From the NCBI GenBank assembly GCA_905234775.1, contig CAJOJC010000089.1, positions 1 to 9,162 of the forward strand: a DNA stretch of 9,162 nt, given 5' to 3'. Within the stretch, counting starts at the first letter, position 1; every line of letters starts with the position of its first letter. The notes under the pieces were generated by a model. The model was given only the letters and a program-made list of their open reading frames with translations. It ran no database searches and was not told where the DNA came from. The position numbers and the translations under genes are program-made. Shown here one piece after another: positions 1-8,085 of the stretch. The stretch is from an uncultured Bacteroidales bacterium. Lineage in GTDB: Bacteria > Bacteroidota > Bacteroidia > Bacteroidales > UBA932.

Positions 1-2603
1 ACCCTGGTCTGATTGTCATCACACGTGACGCTATCCCCGGCAGCGGCAGCGCCCGTATGCTTATCCGCGGAATCGGCTCCTACGCCGAGAGCCCGGATGT
101 CAATACCCTCAAGATCTATGTGGACGGCTTCGAGGTGAAGAGCGACTTTATTGACTATATCTCCGCGGAAGAAATCGAATCTGTGGAGATTCTCAAAGAC
201 GCCTCCGAACTCGCCCTCTACGGTATGAACGGCGCCAACGGCGTTATCTATATCACTACCAAACGTGGTACAGTCGGCTCGCCCAAGATCAATTTCCGAA
301 GCAGCGGGGGAGTCTCTACCCCGATTAACGTAGTGAAGCCCCTCGGATCCTACGATTATGCCCGCCTCTACAATCAGGCATGGGCAAACGACCATGGCCG
401 CGAGTGGGATCCGTACTACGATCTGGATGCCATGAACGCATATAAGAGCGGAACGGGCACGGACGTAGACTGGTACGACGAAGTCTTTAGAAGCGCCACC
501 CCCTATGCGGATGCGAACCTTTCGATACGCGGAGGATCGGATCTGGCCAAGTACAATGTCGTCCTCGACTATGCGAACCAGCAGGGCTTCCTGAACGTCC
601 GGAATACCGACAGGACCCACAACGCTTCGTTTGCCAAATACGGCGTCAGGACCAACCTCGATATGAAACTCAATAAGGTACTGACGGTGAGCATGGATCT
701 CGGCGGCAGGCTCGAAGACAGGGCCAGGCCGAACTACAGCCTCTACTCGCTCGTAAGCGACGTGATGAGCTATCCGTCCAACATCTACCCGATTTTCGAC
801 GAACTCTCGACCGACCCCATCATCAATCTTTCCGGAACCGCGGTCCATCCCAATAACCCCGTAGGCTCGCTCATCGGACTGGGCTGGACTACCTCCCGTA
901 CGAAGGTGATGCAGGCGAACTTCAAGTTCAGGGAAGATCTTGGCTTCTTGCTCCCCGGTCTCTACCTTCAGGAGGGCTTCTCCTTCTATTCGAAGACGAT
1001 AGGAAACACGGCCAAGACCGCGACCTACGCCCGTTATATCGGCGGCGTACCCCAGACGGCCGACGAGTCGACCTACCTTCGCTCGCAGGGCTACTGGTCC
1101 TCGGGCAAGGAGCGCTGGATGCAGGGCAACGTCATCCTCGGCTGGAACGGCAAAATGGACGAGAACGTCTTCGACGCTCAGCTCTCGGCCCACATATCCG
1201 ATTTCAACGGCACCGGCTCCCAGTTCTATAACTGGAAGTACCGCTATATCAACTACGCCGGCCGCCTTGGGTGGACATACGACGAGCGAATCGAGGCCGC
1301 TCTGGGCTTCTCGCTCTTCGGCAGCGACGCCTATGCCCCCGGACACCGCTATGTCTTCTATCCCACCGTCTCGCTCGGCTGGAAGCTCACAGACGATGTG
1401 AAGCTACGCGCATCCGCCGGCTTTACCGGCGCTACCGAGGCCTACGTGGGGATCGAGGGCCTGGAAACCGACGGCCGCTACCTCTACAAGCAGTATTACA
1501 CCTGGACCGGCAGTTTCGTTACCGGAATGGGACCGAACTTCGGAGGCGGAGTCAGCGGAATAAGGCCCCTCTACAGCGGAAGCGAAGACCTCACGGCAGA
1601 AAAGAGCTTCAAGGCCAATGTCGGAACGGATTCGAAGTTCCTGGACGGCAGGCTCAGCCTCAGGGCCGATTACTTCATGGACCTTCGCACCGGCATCCTC
1701 ACCCTCGACCGCACACTGATGGACTACTATGGCACCAAGACTGCCTACTCTAATCTCGGCAGGATGCTGAACCACGGTCTGGATGCCTCGATAGTCTGGG
1801 CCGATACCAAGGGTGAATTCAAGTACAATCTCTTTACCAACCTTCTCTTCGCAAAGAACACCATTCTCGAGATGGGAGAAGTCGGGCCCAAGTTCCCGTA
1901 CAACGCCGCAACCGGACATCCTTACGGTTCAAGAATGGGCCTTGAATGTATTGGCTTCTATGAACTTAAGGACTTCGACCTCGACGGCGAACTTCAGATG
2001 ACTGAAGCAATCCCGCTCTTCGGAAGCGTTCAGCCCGGAGACCTTAAATACAAGGACCAGGACGGCGACGGCTATATCGACGATACCGATATCGTCTGGC
2101 TTGGAAATCCTTCCTACCCGATGCTTACCGTCGATTTCGGCGGCCAGGCTGAGTGGCTTGGATTCGACCTTTCGGTACTCTTTACAAGTTCGTTCGGTTC
2201 TACCGTAAACCTGCTCGATTACTCGGCATGGAAGCCGTTCCTTAACTACGGCACCGCCTTCGAGTGGGCAAAGGGCGCCTGGGCCTACTATCCGGAAGCT
2301 CAGGTGGATACCCGCAAGAGCGCTACGTTCCCCAGACTCACTACAGGTCAGAACGACCACAACTACCGCTCCAGCTCATTCTGGGTGAAGAACAACAATT
2401 ACCTCCGCCTGAAGAACCTTGAGCTGGGTTATACTCTCAAATTCGCCGGATCGGGAGTGGAGAAGCTCCGCGTATACCTTTCCGGACAGAATCTCTTTAC
2501 GGTAAGTACTTTACTCTGGAAATACAAGATGGATCCGGAGACTGTAAACTACGGTTATCCCGCCGCAAGAAGCGTTTGCGCCGGAGTGCAGATCAGTTTC
2601 TAA
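1..2603 (+). CDS. SusC/RagA-family TonB-dependent outer membrane transporter, 5'-truncated
   Basis: This is an outer membrane TonB-dependent transporter of the SusC family, which imports oligosaccharides with its SusD lid protein using TonB energy. The frame is open to the window edge: codons from position 3 read PGLIVITRDAIPGSGSAR before the first ATG at 57, so that ATG is internal. The signal peptide, carboxypeptidase-regulatory-like domain and TonB box are off the window. The end of the plug domain is visible: RMLIRGIGSY near the left edge, then VEILKDASELALYGMNGANG and ITTKRG at about 183-270, matching the usual SusC LYG..ANGVI.ITTKRG signature. The rest is beta-barrel, with a Ca-loop-like DQDGDGYIDDTD at about 2055-2090 and a typical C-terminus (YGYPAAR, final GVQISF ending in Phe). 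About 866 codons are present, consistent with a roughly 1000-residue protein lacking its N-terminus. The next start is 13 bases after the stop, so it is probably co-transcribed with the susD-like gene. The substrate cannot be read from this gene. Confidence 0.96.
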   Translation, partial: PGLIVITRDAIPGSGSARMLIRGIGSYAESPDVNTLKIYVDGFEVKSDFIDYISAEEIESVEILKDASELALYGMNGANGVIYITTKRGTVGSPKINFRSSGGVSTPINVVKPLGSYDYARLYNQAWANDHGREWDPYYDLDAMNAYKSGTGTDVDWYDEVFRSATPYADANLSIRGGSDLAKYNVVLDYANQQGFLNVRNTDRTHNASFAKYGVRTNLDMKLNKVLTVSMDLGGRLEDRARPNYSLYSLVSDVMSYPSNIYPIFDELSTDPIINLSGTAVHPNNPVGSLIGLGWTTSRTKVMQANFKFREDLGFLLPGLYLQEGFSFYSKTIGNTAKTATYARYIGGVPQTADESTYLRSQGYWSSGKERWMQGNVILGWNGKMDENVFDAQLSAHISDFNGTGSQFYNWKYRYINYAGRLGWTYDERIEAALGFSLFGSDAYAPGHRYVFYPTVSLGWKLTDDVKLRASAGFTGATEAYVGIEGLETDGRYLYKQYYTWTGSFVTGMGPNFGGGVSGIRPLYSGSEDLTAEKSFKANVGTDSKFLDGRLSLRADYFMDLRTGILTLDRTLMDYYGTKTAYSNLGRMLNHGLDASIVWADTKGEFKYNLFTNLLFAKNTILEMGEVGPKFPYNAATGHPYGSRMGLECIGFYELKDFDLDGELQMTEAIPLFGSVQPGDLKYKDQDGDGYIDDTDIVWLGNPSYPMLTVDFGGQAEWLGFDLSVLFTSSFGSTVNLLDYSAWKPFLNYGTAFEWAKGAWAYYPEAQVDTRKSATFPRLTTGQNDHNYRSSSFWVKNNNYLRLKNLELGYTLKFAGSGVEKLRVYLSGQNLFTVSTLLWKYKMDPETVNYGYPAARSVCAGVQISF

Positions 2604-2616
2604 AAATGACAGTGTT

Positions 2617-4323
2617 ATGAAAAGAATAGTTCTTATTTCAGCGCTCACGCTCCTTGCAGTTTCCTGCTCCGATTTCCTCGATACCCGCATCGACGTATTC
2701 GATACGGTCGAGCGCCTCGAGACCCGTCCGAGTACGCTGTCGAGCTTCGCATATGCGTTCTATACGCCTATGCAGTATGGTTTCAATGTCATAGACGGAA
2801 ACCTCTTTGCTTCCGCTTCAGACGAAGCCGAACAGACCGCTCCGACCTCCGATGTGTCCGCCTTCAACCGCGGCCTCATCTCCCCGGATCTCAACCCTAT
2901 CGCTTACCTCTACAACAATTATTACGAAGGCATCCGCGCCGCTCACTTCTTCCTCGATTACGCAAAGGACGGTGAGAAGTTCCTTGCCCTCAACCGCGAC
3001 ACCAGTACCGTTTACAATCCCGACGGAACGGTATACAGTACCGAGAAGCCGAAGGCCTATATGAGGGACGTAATCAACCTCAATTGGCTCAGGGCCGAAG
3101 CTGCAATAGCCGAGGCTTACTACTACGGCGAACTTATCAAGATGTACGGCGGAGTGCCTATCATAGGTGAAAATACGGAGGGCACAACCCGTCAGGCCAC
3201 CTACGATGAGGTTGTAGAACACATCGTCAGCCTGATTGATGCGAATGCAGACAAGGTCAACCTCGACTGGAGGGTGGCTCTGGATCCTACCCCGGAAAAT
3301 GCAATCGCAGATGTAAACAACTGGAACTTCCGCGACGATATCGGCCGCTGGGACAAGACCTCGGCCCTTGCCGTGAAGGCCCGCGTACTGCTTTATGCCG
3401 CCAGCCCCCGCAATAATGAGGAGGCCGACGTGAAGAAGTGGGAGAGGGCTGCAGAAGCCGCCCACGACGTGATCAAGCTCCGCGAGGATATCTTCGCAAA
3501 GGGCTTCGGTTTCGGAGAGGATGCCAGGACTCACCCGAGCTCCCATATGCCCGCTAACCGCGACTATGGCAACTATTTTATCCGTAATAACGCGGCCTCC
3601 GACGTGGAATCGATCTTCCTCATCCGCAGGGCTGCAGGCAGCGCTCCCGAGGTGGCAAACTACCCGATCGGTACCCGTGGCGGAAACAGCGGCGTTTGCC
3701 CGACCCACAACCTGATCGAAGCGTACGATTACGTAGGCCCTGAGGCCCCGGATCCGTATGTCAACCGCGATCCCCGTCTTGCTGCGACCGTGGTCTTTAA
3801 CGGTTCCGTATGGAACGGCAGCATTATCGACGAGTCGGCCGGCGGCCTGTATGACCAGCGCGTAAACGGCGCCTCGAAGACCGGATACTATCTGAAGAAA
3901 TTCCTCGCCCCGAATCTCAACCTGATCGAAGGAGGAAGTACGGACCATATCTGGCCTCTCTACCGCTATGCCGAGGTCCTTCTGAACTATGCCGAGGCCA
4001 TGAACGAGGCCTATGGCCCGGATGCAGACCCGAAGGGCTGGGGAATGACCGCCCGCGACGCCCTTACCGAGGTCCGCAATAGCGCCAGCACCCTCCTTCC
4101 GGCTATCACTACCAGCTCCAAGGCCGAATTCCGCAAGGCGGTAAAGAAGGAAAGGCAGGTGGAACTCGCGTTCGAAGACCACCGCTACTGGGATCTGCTC
4201 CGTTGGAGAGATGCCGAGACTGTCCTGAACCGCTCGATCAAAGGTGTGGTAGTTATACAGCTATCAGTTCGTCGCGACCAGGACCTTCGAGGAGAAGAAC
4301 TACTACCTCCCATTCTCCCGTAA
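2617..4323 (+). CDS. SusD/RagB-family nutrient-binding lipoprotein, C-terminus frameshifted
   Basis: This is the surface lipoprotein that caps the SusC channel and binds glycan. It has a lipoprotein signal peptide with the lipid-anchor Cys at residue 17 (LLAVSC) followed by SDFLDT, a very typical SusD start. SusD/RagB landmarks occur in order: LRAEAAIAEAYYYGELIKMY and GGVPII at about 154-182, RWDKTSALAVKARVLLYAAS at about 248-267, YRYAEVLLNYAEAMNEAYG at about 449-467, and KKERQVELAFEDHRYWDLL at about 510-528. After SIKGV (to about 4248) the sequence becomes foreign to the family (QLSVRRDQDLRGEELLPPIL) and stops at 4321-4323. The expected SusD ending is found one frame over at 4253-4375. If the frame were restored, the protein would be about 585 residues instead of 568. 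The most economical explanations are a one-base insertion or a two-base deletion near 4250-4260, either a natural mutation or a sequencing/assembly error. Confidence 0.93.
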   Translation: MKRIVLISALTLLAVSCSDFLDTRIDVFDTVERLETRPSTLSSFAYAFYTPMQYGFNVIDGNLFASASDEAEQTAPTSDVSAFNRGLISPDLNPIAYLYNNYYEGIRAAHFFLDYAKDGEKFLALNRDTSTVYNPDGTVYSTEKPKAYMRDVINLNWLRAEAAIAEAYYYGELIKMYGGVPIIGENTEGTTRQATYDEVVEHIVSLIDANADKVNLDWRVALDPTPENAIADVNNWNFRDDIGRWDKTSALAVKARVLLYAASPRNNEEADVKKWERAAEAAHDVIKLREDIFAKGFGFGEDARTHPSSHMPANRDYGNYFIRNNAASDVESIFLIRRAAGSAPEVANYPIGTRGGNSGVCPTHNLIEAYDYVGPEAPDPYVNRDPRLAATVVFNGSVWNGSIIDESAGGLYDQRVNGASKTGYYLKKFLAPNLNLIEGGSTDHIWPLYRYAEVLLNYAEAMNEAYGPDADPKGWGMTARDALTEVRNSASTLLPAITTSSKAEFRKAVKKERQVELAFEDHRYWDLLRWRDAETVLNRSIKGVVVIQLSVRRDQDLRGEELLPPILP

Positions 4324-4377: not shown

Positions 4378-5004
4378 ATGAAGACTCTATATAAGATATT
4401 GCCTGTTTTGGCATTGTTTTTCGCCTTCGCGGCCTGCGAGGAGAATGATGCTACCCGTGACTACGGATTTGCCAAACTCTACATCCCTCAGGCTACCGTG
4501 ACGGGTCTCGACAACTCATATCCGATTCCTCTCGGGCCCTTTGGCCAGAACTCAGTCTATACCTGCAAGTTTGACAATGGGACCGGTATCCTTGATATCG
4601 AGGTCGGAGTAATCCGCAGCGGTTACTATGCCGAGCAGAAAGGATATTCCGTAGACCTGAAGGTCAGCGACACCGAAACAGCCGACAAACTGGCGGCCTA
4701 TTCGGAGGCCGGAACCCCGGCCGCGGAACTGCCTGCAGCAGTAGTGACTGTCCCTTCCAAGATTACCGTTCCTGCCGGCCAGAGCGGGGAAGCGGTCTAT
4801 GTAAGCGTGGATCTTAAAGCTCTCGCCCTCCAGAAGACTTCGCTCTGGGTTACAGACAAGTACAAACTGCTCGTCCTCGGCCTTGAGATCTCGAATCCTA
4901 CCGAGTATGAACTCGCGGATAACAACACCAGTGTCGTAATCGTACTCGACCTTAACAGCGAGTATTGGGGCGCTGAAGTCCGTACGCTATTTCCAATGAA
5001 CTAA
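4378..5004 (+). CDS. DUF1735 (BT_3987-like N-terminal domain) lipoprotein
   Basis: A 208-residue lipoprotein. The signal peptide ends in a lipobox with Cys20 (FAFAAC), followed by the acidic EEND, as in surface-exported Bacteroidota lipoproteins. Residues about 30-155 resemble the DUF1735 domain: FAKLYIPQA at 31-39, then a hydrophilic strand region, and VPSKITVPAGQSGEAVYVSV at 125-144, which matches the typical ..TIPAG.....V.V pattern. The remaining C-terminal stretch is beta-rich (WVTDKYKLLVLGLEI, SVVIVLDL) and not recognised. Proteins with this domain are common just downstream of SusCD pairs in PULs and are thought to bind glycan or carry other surface domains, but this one has no catalytic domain. 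The start codon sits two bases after the restored stop of the SusD-like gene, so it belongs to the same operon. A glycan-binding accessory role is inferred from position and domain only. Confidence 0.8.
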   Translation: MKTLYKILPVLALFFAFAACEENDATRDYGFAKLYIPQATVTGLDNSYPIPLGPFGQNSVYTCKFDNGTGILDIEVGVIRSGYYAEQKGYSVDLKVSDTETADKLAAYSEAGTPAAELPAAVVTVPSKITVPAGQSGEAVYVSVDLKALALQKTSLWVTDKYKLLVLGLEISNPTEYELADNNTSVVIVLDLNSEYWGAEVRTLFPMN

Positions 5005-5031: not shown

Positions 5032-6255
5032 ATGAAAAAGTTTTTCTATCTCATTGCAGCAGCTGCTATTATGATGGTCAGTTGCGAGGATCCGGCAGGT
5101 CCGGAAAAACCGGACACTCCGGCCGGTGCTCCCAAGGCAGACTTTGAGTTTGTCGTAGACGGTCTTACCGTTACCTTCACCAGCAAGGCTGAGAATGCCG
5201 CTTCCTACAAATGGGAATTCGGCGATGGCGAAACAGCCAAGACCGCTTCTCCTACCCACGAGTATCTCAGCGGCGGAACTTACAACGTCAAGCTCACTGT
5301 AGCCAATGCCGACGGAGAGACTGACAGCACCGAGAAACCTGTTACCGTACAGGGCGCAGGCGGAGCTGTTAAGGCTTTCTTCTCTACCAATGTCATTACC
5401 GACCGTTCCGGAAAATTCGGTCTTAAGGTCGAATTCGACGCTACCTCTTCCCAGGGCGCAGAGTCCATCAGCTGGGACTTCGGCGACGGCGGCAGCGCAA
5501 CTGAGTTCAAGACTTCTCACCTCTACGAGGCTTTCGGTACTTATACCGTTAAGGCTACCGTAACCGGTGGCGGCAGCTCTGATACCTACACTGCAAGTGT
5601 CGAGCTCGTTCCCTTCACCGAACTTCTCAAGGGCGGCGCAATGGAGGAGGATGACGCTCAGTACTGGACTGTAGTCAGCGCAGACGCTTCTACCAATGAT
5701 GACGGTTACGCTGGAACTCCCGGCCTTCCTTCCTTCACTTCTACCTTCGGTTATACCGAGGACGGCCCTAAGGGCGGCAAGGGCGGATGCCTCCGTCTCG
5801 GCGGTGAGAACCAGTTCCACGACTGGGCCCACAACGCTACTGTCTACCAGGCCATCGAGCTCGAGGAAGGCGATATTATCGAACTGTCTGCCCAACTCAA
5901 GTGGGACGGCAACATCAATGACAACGGCCTCTTCTGGCTCTGTGTCGACACAACCCCCGAGCCGTCAGACGATAACATCATAGTCCAGTTCTTTAACTGG
6001 TGGGATGCTGAAGGCAGTCAGGTATCCGTACCTGCATACGACGGAGATCTCTCCGGCAGTGCCAATTATTCCCAAGGCGACGATTGGGGCTTCTCGACTC
6101 CTTATGATGCCAACGGCGAGGGAACAGGAGTTCAGTACACTGCCGCTACTTCCGGAACCTACTACATTATGTTCAATGTACGTAATGTCTGGAGCGTAAC
6201 ATACTATGGAAAGCCTTATTTCATCGACGAGGTAAGCGCTAAGATAGTTTTATAA
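5032..6255 (+). CDS. Two-PKD-domain lipoprotein, probable surface glycan-binding protein
   Basis: A 407-residue lipoprotein. The signal peptide ends at Cys18 (IMMVSC) and is followed by acidic EDP and a Pro-rich spacer. Two PKD domains follow: residues about 35-106, with the signature WEFGDG at 61-66 and HEYLSGGTYNVKLTV; and about 113-192, with WDFGDG at 148-153 and HLYEAFGTYTVKATV. PKD folds usually act as rigid spacers or in protein-carbohydrate contact. Residues about 195-407 form a beta-rich, aromatic-rich region (GGAMEEDDAQYW, CLRLGGENQFHDW, VYQAIELEEGDIIELSAQLK, FFNWWD, closing with FIDEVSAKI) that looks like a jelly-roll carbohydrate-binding module, though no CBM family could be assigned. 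No catalytic motif is seen. PKD lipoproteins beside SusCD and GH16 genes are known in beta-glucan PULs, so a glycan-capturing role is the best inference. Confidence 0.85.
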   Translation: MKKFFYLIAAAAIMMVSCEDPAGPEKPDTPAGAPKADFEFVVDGLTVTFTSKAENAASYKWEFGDGETAKTASPTHEYLSGGTYNVKLTVANADGETDSTEKPVTVQGAGGAVKAFFSTNVITDRSGKFGLKVEFDATSSQGAESISWDFGDGGSATEFKTSHLYEAFGTYTVKATVTGGGSSDTYTASVELVPFTELLKGGAMEEDDAQYWTVVSADASTNDDGYAGTPGLPSFTSTFGYTEDGPKGGKGGCLRLGGENQFHDWAHNATVYQAIELEEGDIIELSAQLKWDGNINDNGLFWLCVDTTPEPSDDNIIVQFFNWWDAEGSQVSVPAYDGDLSGSANYSQGDDWGFSTPYDANGEGTGVQYTAATSGTYYIMFNVRNVWSVTYYGKPYFIDEVSAKIVL

Positions 6256-6328: not shown

Positions 6329-7273
6329 ATGAAAAAATCGATCATCATCAGTGTCCTTGCTTTGTGCGGCCTTGCCTTCACGGCTTCGGCCCAGGATACG
6401 GACAGCCGTTTTATGCGTCCCTTTACCGAAAATTTCAGCTCTTCGAAGCCGGATAATTTCGGTACTTCCGGCAGCTCTCTTCGCTACTACTGCGGAGTCC
6501 CTTCGCTGAGCGAACTTGGCTCGGATGTGATGCTTATGCGAATCAATCCGTCCGATCCCGCCGGCGCGGGCCGAGGTCCCGAAATCTCAACCCCAAAGAT
6601 GACTCATTTCGGTACCTACAGTGCTAGAATCAGGGTTCCGGATGTCAAGGATGTACAGCCGAATATCGGTGTCGTGGTCGGTTATTTCACCTATCGCTTT
6701 ACGAAGGGATACGGCCTCAGCGAGATCGACTTCGAGTGGCTTATCGCAGATCCGACCCTCATCTATATCGGTACCTGGACCAGCGACCCCAATAATGTAA
6801 ACAATCTCCAGAGGGTAGGCCGTACCATTAACCTTGCTACTGGCCAGATTCTGTATACCAACTACAGGTCCTATCACGACGGTAACCGTAATCACGACTT
6901 TGCCAGCAACGACGATGCGGCCCTCACTCCCCGTACTATCCCCGCGATTACGGGCTACGACGCCTCGAAGAAGTTCTATGTCTACGGCTTCGACTGGTAT
7001 CCGAACCGTCTGACCTGGTGGATCGAGCACCCGGATACCGGAGAGAAGATCATCCTCTGGGACTACCAGGGAACGACACCCAACTTCTCCGGAATTCCTC
7101 AGCCCCCGACTACCTATCTGCTCAATTTCTGGCACACCAACGACTGGTCGGTCGATACAAACCCCCGCTCGAAGGAGGCTCCTAAGTATCCTTATTTCCT
7201 CGAGATTGACTGGATGAAGTATGAGCCTTACGACGATGTAAATATCGCCTGGAGAAAGGAGAACAACTTTTGA
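6329..7273 (+). CDS. Secreted GH16-family endo-glycoside hydrolase (first paralogue)
   Basis: A 314-residue secreted enzyme of the concanavalin A-like GH16 family, which cuts beta-1,3 or beta-1,4 bonds in beta-glucans or galactans by a retaining mechanism. A type I signal peptide is likely cleaved after TASA (residue 21). The catalytic motif is SEIDFEW at 131-137: Glu132 nucleophile, Asp134, Glu136 acid/base, in the ExDxE (no bulge) form seen in lichenases and xyloglucan enzymes. Other family landmarks are GPEI at 83-86, FGTYSARIRVPDV at 94-106, GVVVGYFTY at 114-122, FYVYGFDWYPNRLTWW at 216-231, LLNFWHTNDW at 264-273 and LEIDWMKY at 291-298. About 58 residues (151-208) lie between the catalytic strand and the GYDASKKF block, more than in a compact lichenase, and include VGRTINLATGQIL. 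It is close in sequence and identical in length to the gene at 8085. The substrate is not readable from sequence alone. Confidence 0.9.
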   Translation: MKKSIIISVLALCGLAFTASAQDTDSRFMRPFTENFSSSKPDNFGTSGSSLRYYCGVPSLSELGSDVMLMRINPSDPAGAGRGPEISTPKMTHFGTYSARIRVPDVKDVQPNIGVVVGYFTYRFTKGYGLSEIDFEWLIADPTLIYIGTWTSDPNNVNNLQRVGRTINLATGQILYTNYRSYHDGNRNHDFASNDDAALTPRTIPAITGYDASKKFYVYGFDWYPNRLTWWIEHPDTGEKIILWDYQGTTPNFSGIPQPPTTYLLNFWHTNDWSVDTNPRSKEAPKYPYFLEIDWMKYEPYDDVNIAWRKENNF

Positions 7274-7275
7274 TT

Positions 7276-8085
7276 ATGAAACTTTTTAAGAGTATCATAG
7301 GGTTATCGCTGGCGGCATCTCTTCTGTATGTCGCCTGCTCCGATCCGTATACTTATACCGGCCCGGTCCACGTCAATCCCGGCAATCAGACCGATACTAC
7401 CGCGGCTCCTGATACCGTGACCCCCGGCCCGGTAATTCCGCCTACTCCTCCTATCGAAGTCACTGTGATGGAGTCCTTCACTGAGAATTTCGACGCGAAG
7501 ACATCCGAACTCTTTGCCTTCCAGAAAAGTACCGTCCGCCCGGATTTCCGTTATTATCCGGCTTTCCCTTCGCTTAGCGAGTCCGGAACCACTATCCTGA
7601 TGCTGAGACTTGACCCTAAGGACCAGGTAGGCGAAGGCGCCCTCGTAGGCGCAACAGGGTATATAGACAAGGGTTCGCTGAGCCTTCGTATGCGTACGCC
7701 GGATGTGGCGTCAGCCCAGTCCAACGTAGGCTCCAGCGCAGATCTGCAACTTTTGGATCCTGACGGGAAAGAGGCTTTCGTTCTTAGCCTGAAACTCTCC
7801 GAACCCGGCAAGGTCTACGTAGGCGAATCGGCCCTGACTCCTGAAATCTCGGGATTCAAGGCATGTTCCAAATTCTATATCTACGGCCTTGACTGGACCG
7901 AGGAAAAACTCAGCGTCTGGATCAAGACCGGAGCAAAGGCAGACAAGCAGGTTTTGACTGAGATTACCGAGAATCTCCCTTCGACCCCTTTGCGTCCCGT
8001 GCTCCGTTTCTACACTCCTTCGGGCAAGCTCCCGCTCTATCCCTACGAACTTGAAGTAAACTGGATCTCCTATACCTCAGAATAA
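7276..8085 (+). CDS. GH16-like lipoprotein lacking catalytic residues (predicted pseudoenzyme)
   Basis: A 269-residue lipoprotein. I start at ATG 7276, two bases after the previous stop; an upstream in-frame TTG at 7270 would overlap the previous gene and add only two residues. Lipid-anchor Cys21 (LLYVAC) is followed by SDP and a Pro/Thr-rich linker to about residue 63. The remainder is homologous to the flanking GH16 proteins: FRYYPAFPSLSESG at 91-104, LRLDP at 110-114, SLSLRMRTPDV at 134-144, VYVG at 180-183, KFYIYGLDW at 199-207, and YPYELEVNWISY at 255-266. Where the paralogues have SEIDFEW this protein has KEAFVLS at 165-171, so the catalytic Asp and acid/base Glu are gone. The 58-residue segment after the catalytic strand is cut to about nine residues, and NFWHTN is replaced by RFYTPS. 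It is therefore unlikely to hydrolyse glycan; a binding or scaffolding role at the cell surface is inferred. Confidence 0.85.
   Translation: MKLFKSIIGLSLAASLLYVACSDPYTYTGPVHVNPGNQTDTTAAPDTVTPGPVIPPTPPIEVTVMESFTENFDAKTSELFAFQKSTVRPDFRYYPAFPSLSESGTTILMLRLDPKDQVGEGALVGATGYIDKGSLSLRMRTPDVASAQSNVGSSADLQLLDPDGKEAFVLSLKLSEPGKVYVGESALTPEISGFKACSKFYIYGLDWTEEKLSVWIKTGAKADKQVLTEITENLPSTPLRPVLRFYTPSGKLPLYPYELEVNWISYTSE

Follow-up and report, generated by a model that had tools for sequence, protein, structure and literature searches.

Proteins with the fold of glycoside hydrolase family 16 (GH16) that have lost catalysis, and the surface glycan-binding proteins (SGBPs) of polysaccharide utilization loci (PULs), are each already known. 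To our knowledge, the origin of the sequence-divergent glycan-binding proteins encoded by PULs is mostly obscure. Among the dead GH16 proteins, probable glucan binding has been ascribed to the insect protein Aae GH16.4 (PMC6403176), and Rv0315 of Mycobacterium tuberculosis (PDB 4wzf) is described as a GH16 fold without glucanase activity (PMC4606783). On the side of the PULs, work on the utilisome shows that SusCD operates in a single complex with a surface glycanase and a glycan-binding lipoprotein (PMC7618045). Here we consider a locus in which the two themes meet. The window, that is, the whole 9,162-nt stretch of DNA analyzed from an uncultured Bacteroidales bacterium (contig CAJOJC010000089.1), carries on its + strand most of one PUL, from a SusC-like gene through a GH16 gene that we call GH16b. 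A gene for a 269-aa lipoprotein (the middle gene and protein) sits in this SusC/SusD locus and, as the first-pass annotation of this sequence had recognized, lies between two triad-bearing GH16 enzymes, GH16a and GH16b. With a probability of about 0.6, we interpret the middle protein as a non-catalytic, lipid-anchored SGBP with a GH16 fold, which holds the chain that GH16a and GH16b cut. Searches of the open-licence literature of PubMed Central turned up no description of a dead GH16 lipoprotein that lies inside a PUL between live sisters and is accompanied by intermediates.

A GH16-fold lipoprotein without a catalytic triad

The middle protein is composed of the following parts:

7276..7338, + strand: signal peptide with lipobox SLLYVAC, called by pattern; lipidated Cys21 at 7336-7338
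7342..7371, + strand: short conserved motif DPYTYTGPVH directly after the lipid anchor
7372..7467, + strand: stalk rich in Pro and Thr, up to about residue 64, modeled for the most part as unstructured
7468..8082, + strand: GH16 jelly-roll domain of the predicted model, residues 65-269 (about 205 residues)
7765..7797, + strand: former catalytic strand GKEAFVLSLKL, aligned with GLSEIDFEWLI of GH16a
8005..8013, + strand: putatively rebuilt cleft strand with Arg244 (Asn266 of GH16a) and Tyr246 (Trp268 of GH16a), from column comparison

The strand blocks that the middle protein was said to have in common with its neighbors are indeed present, and BLASTP relates it to the two GH16 enzymes with E values of 1e-26 and 2e-24, on which basis chance similarity was rejected; the alignments contain large gaps and show 27-28% identity. 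A search with the GH16 profile PF00722 gave no match at E<=1 for the 269-residue protein, whereas GH16a and GH16b both pass the Pfam cut-off; a match to the Pfam DCX domain (E 0.038, below cut-off) was taken as chance. The GH16 fold, as first proposed, is supported by the predicted model, a beta-jelly-roll of the GH16 type that superposes on lichenases over 170-181 residues with a root-mean-square deviation of 1.7-2.1 Å. Because the model still aligns over this length, the roughly 50 residues noted as missing after the catalytic strand, which are truly absent relative to the paralogues (the spacing from this strand to DASKKF / KACSKF is 24 positions in the middle protein vs 75 in the paralogue), are mainly extra loops of this family. 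The replacement of the catalytic SEID(F/I)E is borne out by the alignment: the positions of the nucleophile, the Asp and the acid/base are occupied by Ala167, Val169 and Ser171, so that the motif ExDx(x)E is absent from the middle protein. No replacement triad elsewhere in the fold was seen in its sequence, the position of E85 (GH16a numbering) being Leu. The paralogous strand LNFWHTN, described as lost, reads LRFYTPS; the strand has changed, but its aromatic has gone from Trp to Tyr/Phe rather than disappeared.

All lipobox calls are pattern matches. Judged thus, all 23 middle genes, that of the window included, have a lipobox-like site, and Cys21 is kept in 97% of the 36 dead members. The stalk is clearly Pro-rich by eye in 21 of the 23, those of loci L016 and L020 being shorter and Pro-poorer. 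The lipobox and stalk noted at first are present, but having an anchor does not set dead members apart, as a lipobox branch with the full E-D-E triad exists. Of the 14 rows in the window's own subclade, 11 carry DPYTYTGPVH unchanged, two (P0005, L003) have it with one change and P0009 lacks it, whereas the remainder of the stalk is variable; the motif may serve in export or docking.

Fixed gene order and purifying selection

A first homology search recovered 23 relatives, of which 10 (P0013-P0022) have a precomputed PF00722 label and 13 do not; a second recovered 1474 proteins at E<=1e-5, and further members were found among the best 120 of these. In a scan of genome contigs that gave 57 loci, the middle gene was found in 22 (L001-L021, L025), all from Bacteroidales metagenome-assembled genomes, many of them from ruminant stomachs. 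The active/dead/active order for which a search of other PULs had been suggested recurs here: a secreted GH16 lies directly upstream of the middle gene in 22/22 loci and a GH16 directly downstream in 21/22, L016 having a GH2 there. Upstream there are also a PKD gene in all 22 and SusC and SusD in 20, the contigs of L003 and L005 being too short. The stop codon of the middle gene overlaps the next start codon in 16 of 23 cases, including the window.

The ratio of nonsynonymous to synonymous substitution rates (NG86 dN/dS) of dead middle genes ranges from 0.068 to 0.222 in 12 pairs, which are not independent and two of which (window-L003 and L009-L013) have dS >1. These values are intermediate between those of the GH16 enzymes (GH16a, 0.029-0.118 in 12 pairs; GH16b, 0.023-0.083 in 11) and the PKD binding-type protein (0.150-0.375 in 10); SusD shows 0.039-0.173 (11 pairs). 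The middle gene is kept by purifying selection. A pseudogene or an assembly error was rejected because the frame is intact in the window and in all 22 other loci and dN/dS is <0.23.

Stepwise loss of the triad

Our main tree has 104 rows, was computed with six catalytic columns left out and is rooted on four Cytophagales GH16s. It includes 18 of the 98 new proteins from the second homology search and the L025 GH16b fusion protein trimmed to 330 aa; it excludes P0001-P0004 and P0021, which are near copies or a fragment, as well as L034-L057, 14 near-copy active genes and the frame-extended open reading frames (ORFs) L003_1920 and L021_10354. The lipoproteins group in a single clade (53 rows, support 100/100), adjoining GH16b-type enzymes, and the remaining 51 rows all have E-D-E. 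An earlier 100-row tree is compatible, as a branch supported at 100/99 keeps the other 59 GH16s together on the same side. Within the clade, E-D-E is kept by seven rows (the middle genes of L017-L019, P0024-P0026 and P0028); in 11 rows both glutamates remain but the Asp is replaced by S, A, Y, F, G, R or T; and 35 have lost the Asp together with at least one glutamate, the residues at the triad positions varying among close relatives (SVS, SIS, NVT, SAS, ATS). Of the 91 columns with at least 95% fixation in actives, clade members retain from 68 down to 30, the window protein 32.

Of the 53 clade rows, 43 were picked up by the lipobox pattern. Nine of the ten unflagged rows (L005-L007, P0013, P0014, P0016, P0017, P0019, P0047) have a lipobox-like Cys by eye, and the tenth (P0018) is without its N-terminus; the pattern also flagged four of the 51 active rows (P0043, P0080, P0107, L033), the first two doubtfully. 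The lipobox-bearing E-D-E branch itself differs from the secreted enzymes in having Gln at E85 (7/7), and Trp at W273 is found in none of the 53 clade rows. The lipid anchor, and with it some change of the cleft, thus probably preceded the loss of the triad. The tree requires two changes of triad state, the second of which rests on P0105 (E-R-E), a sequence with a long-branch warning that is joined weakly (87/31) to the E-D-E branch; because its position is weak, we are unsure of the number of triad losses.

A changed strand in the former cleft

When columns were screened for one residue in at least 85% of the 51 actives and another class in at least 85% of the 36 dead rows, two passed, two residues apart on one strand: Asn266 and Trp268 (GH16a numbering). 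Both are invariant in the actives (51/51), and in the dead rows they become Arg/Lys (35/36) and Tyr/Phe (32/36), respectively, counts that are inflated by inheritance among related clade sequences. The 17 intermediates all keep Trp268, and their position 266 is mostly Ser, Asn or Ala. The equivalent strand of Bacillus lichenase bears sugar-contacting Asn and Trp. Residues newly fixed in a former sugar cleft would be the expected trace of a changed ligand site. As the Tyr/Phe that replaces Trp268 stands beside a new Arg/Lys, and both are fixed in dead members, the sequences favor a rebuilt cleft over an abandoned one.

Functional interpretation

We propose that a GH16 enzyme gene, of which the GH16b type is the nearest on the tree, was copied and that the copy acquired a lipid anchor and a stalk while staying between its two secreted sisters in the SusC/SusD locus. 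Catalysis would then have been lost stepwise, the Asp first and the glutamates next, together with the loops. Tethered at what is presumably the outer surface, the protein would hold a glycan chain on its remodeled concave face, either the same chain as the substrate of the enzymes or a longer one, and holding without cutting would raise the local substrate for GH16a, GH16b and SusCD. The setting is that of an SGBP, with a SusC/SusD locus, a lipoprotein signal by pattern and no catalytic residues. More tentatively, at slightly less than even odds, the fixed gene position could have preserved successive living stages on the way from a glycan-cutting enzyme to a tethered glycan-holding protein: an anchored enzyme, an Asp-less anchored binder with both glutamates and, finally, a lectin-like domain that is compact and has acquired an Arg/Lys-Tyr/Phe site.

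Several points weigh against the SGBP reading. SusD and two other lipoproteins of the locus are already candidate binders. The cleft-side residues E85, F120, Y122, W244 and W273 (GH16a numbering), fixed in actives, are lost in the window protein; the first-pass claim that the aromatic cleft residues are gone holds for the aromatics among these positions, but not for Trp268, where an aromatic persists. That Arg244 and Tyr246 face the cleft would follow from the analogy with lichenase. Because the alignment behind the model included the two active neighbors and triad-keeping relatives, the fold may have been pulled towards GH16. Finally, Rv0315, which is among the fold-search matches of the middle protein (ranks 21 and 42), is reported not to bind oligosaccharides in solution (PMC4606783), and hence lectin function does not necessarily come with a dead GH16 fold; the precedents of Aae GH16.4 and Rv0315 point in opposite directions.

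The main rival, which we consider unlikely, is a scaffold: the domain would bind GH16a, GH16b, SusC or SusD and keep enzymes or transporter together at the membrane, glycan binding having been lost. Such a role would suit the lack of an anchor in both GH16 neighbors, the almost fixed gene order with its stop/start overlaps, the motif after the anchor (at most one change in 13/14 rows) and the loss of much of the ancestral cleft, but the newly fixed residues sit on the former cleft strand. Because 11 of the 53 clade members keep both glutamates and seven the full triad, part of the lipoprotein clade may still be active, and an altered or weak enzyme could use other residues for hydrolysis or transglycosylation. 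This we regard as improbable, since the window protein is non-acidic at the triad and at the E85 position (A, V, S, L) and its close relatives differ among themselves at the triad positions. Less probable again is a sensor or regulator that signals bound glycan, masks the substrate or blocks the sister enzymes; a Pfam scan of the protein found no transmembrane or signaling domain. We give least credence of all to a functionless relic on its way out. The gene does evolve faster than its neighbors (dN for window-L003 is 0.456 vs 0.111 for GH16a), and the protein shrinks across the clade, but the open frames, the low dN/dS, the universally kept lipobox and the newly fixed residues all argue against decay.

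If binding along the series is true, PULs would have a home-grown means of deriving glycan-binding proteins from their own enzymes. A candidate binder of a PUL is here traceable to an enzyme of the same locus, and because intermediates live in present genomes and the sister enzymes adjoin, the order of steps (anchor, Asp, glutamates, loops, new cleft residues) is open to laboratory testing. There is also a warning for annotation: the window protein, without a Pfam GH16 match, counts as hypothetical, and some decayed relatives are labeled PF00722 despite partial or full loss of the triad.

The surrounding locus and its substrate

The genes of the window are as follows:

3..2603, + strand: SusC-like transporter, cut short at its 5' end by the window
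2617..4323, + strand: SusD-like lipoprotein
4378..5004, + strand: lipoprotein with BT_3987-like N-terminal domain
5032..6255, + strand: PKD-domain lipoprotein, probable surface glycan-binding protein
6329..7273, + strand: GH16a, secreted (without lipobox), triad SEIDFE intact
7276..8085, + strand: dead GH16-fold lipoprotein (middle gene), 269 aa
8085..9029, + strand: GH16b, secreted, triad SEIDIE intact

The middle gene starts 2 bases past the GH16a stop (7273), and its own TAA stop (8083-8085) overlaps the GH16b ATG (8085). The window SusD ORF (2617-4323) encodes 568 aa vs 594 aa in L001 and L002, and the gap to the gene that follows is 55 bases, compared with 3 bases in L001; a frameshift or an assembly error towards its 3' end is likely. 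Between the window PKD gene (5032-6255) and L002:7746-8981, dN is 0.293 and dS 0.887, far above the dS of 0.098 for the adjacent SusD, which suggests mosaic exchange of this surface-protein gene. At L002:7157-7718, the BT_3987-N lipoprotein gene is broken into two overlapping ORFs.

The assumption of beta-glucans as the ligand is not supported as first made, although a plain beta-glucan may still be the substrate. The ten best structural matches of GH16a share only 16-20% identity with it, and some orthologous loci have GH2, GH20, NAGLU/GH97 or GH9 genes, as surveyed in chosen ORFs of L002, L008, L009, L016, L018, L020, L021, L022, L024, L025 and L031. GH2 with an exo-glucosaminidase-type Ig domain occurs in L008, L016 and L018 and is fused to GH16b in L025, in a single 1135-aa ORF (L025:10879-14286). 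GH20 is found in L018 and, more weakly, in L022 and L024, both without the middle gene, where the divergent GH20-like genes (L022:7866-9158 and L024:8847-9935) adjoin triad-bearing GH16 genes; L022 also has a GH9. In L021, NAGLU and GH97 domains occur together in one ORF of 1366 aa that follows GH16b (L021:11705-15805). In L002, whose flank is the longest among the close relatives, the adjacent downstream gene encodes a PAP2 protein, so that no amino-sugar enzyme is seen in the window's own kin. The downstream 885-892 aa proteins at L018:12028-14685, L020:13051-15726 and L022:13044-15722 have no Pfam match at the thresholds used. The accompanying GH2, GH20, NAGLU/GH97 and GH9 genes, seen in loci other than the window's nearest kin, hint at an amino-sugar glycan as substrate, but they vary by locus.

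Comparison with known systems

The closest solved folds to the middle protein are those of the Bacillus lichenases, GH16 1,3-1,4-beta-glucanases, which differ from it in being active enzymes and are only 16-21% identical to it in the structural-alignment rows. Rv0315 retains both catalytic glutamates and lies outside any PUL, whereas the middle protein has no triad and belongs to one. The insect GNBP/bGRP proteins resemble it in having a GH16-like domain without catalytic residues, but they serve animal immunity and have neither lipobox nor PUL. An N-terminal glucan-binding module (CBM39) is typical of them; the window protein has no such Pfam match, and an unstructured stalk precedes its domain. 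The likeness to the SGBPs of Bacteroidota PULs extends to the lipoprotein nature, the flexible stalk, the position beside SusC/SusD and endo-glycanases and the lack of catalytic residues. Yet the SGBPs compared are SusD-like or sequence-divergent, whereas the middle protein has the fold of a GH16 enzyme and derives from the locus's own enzymes.
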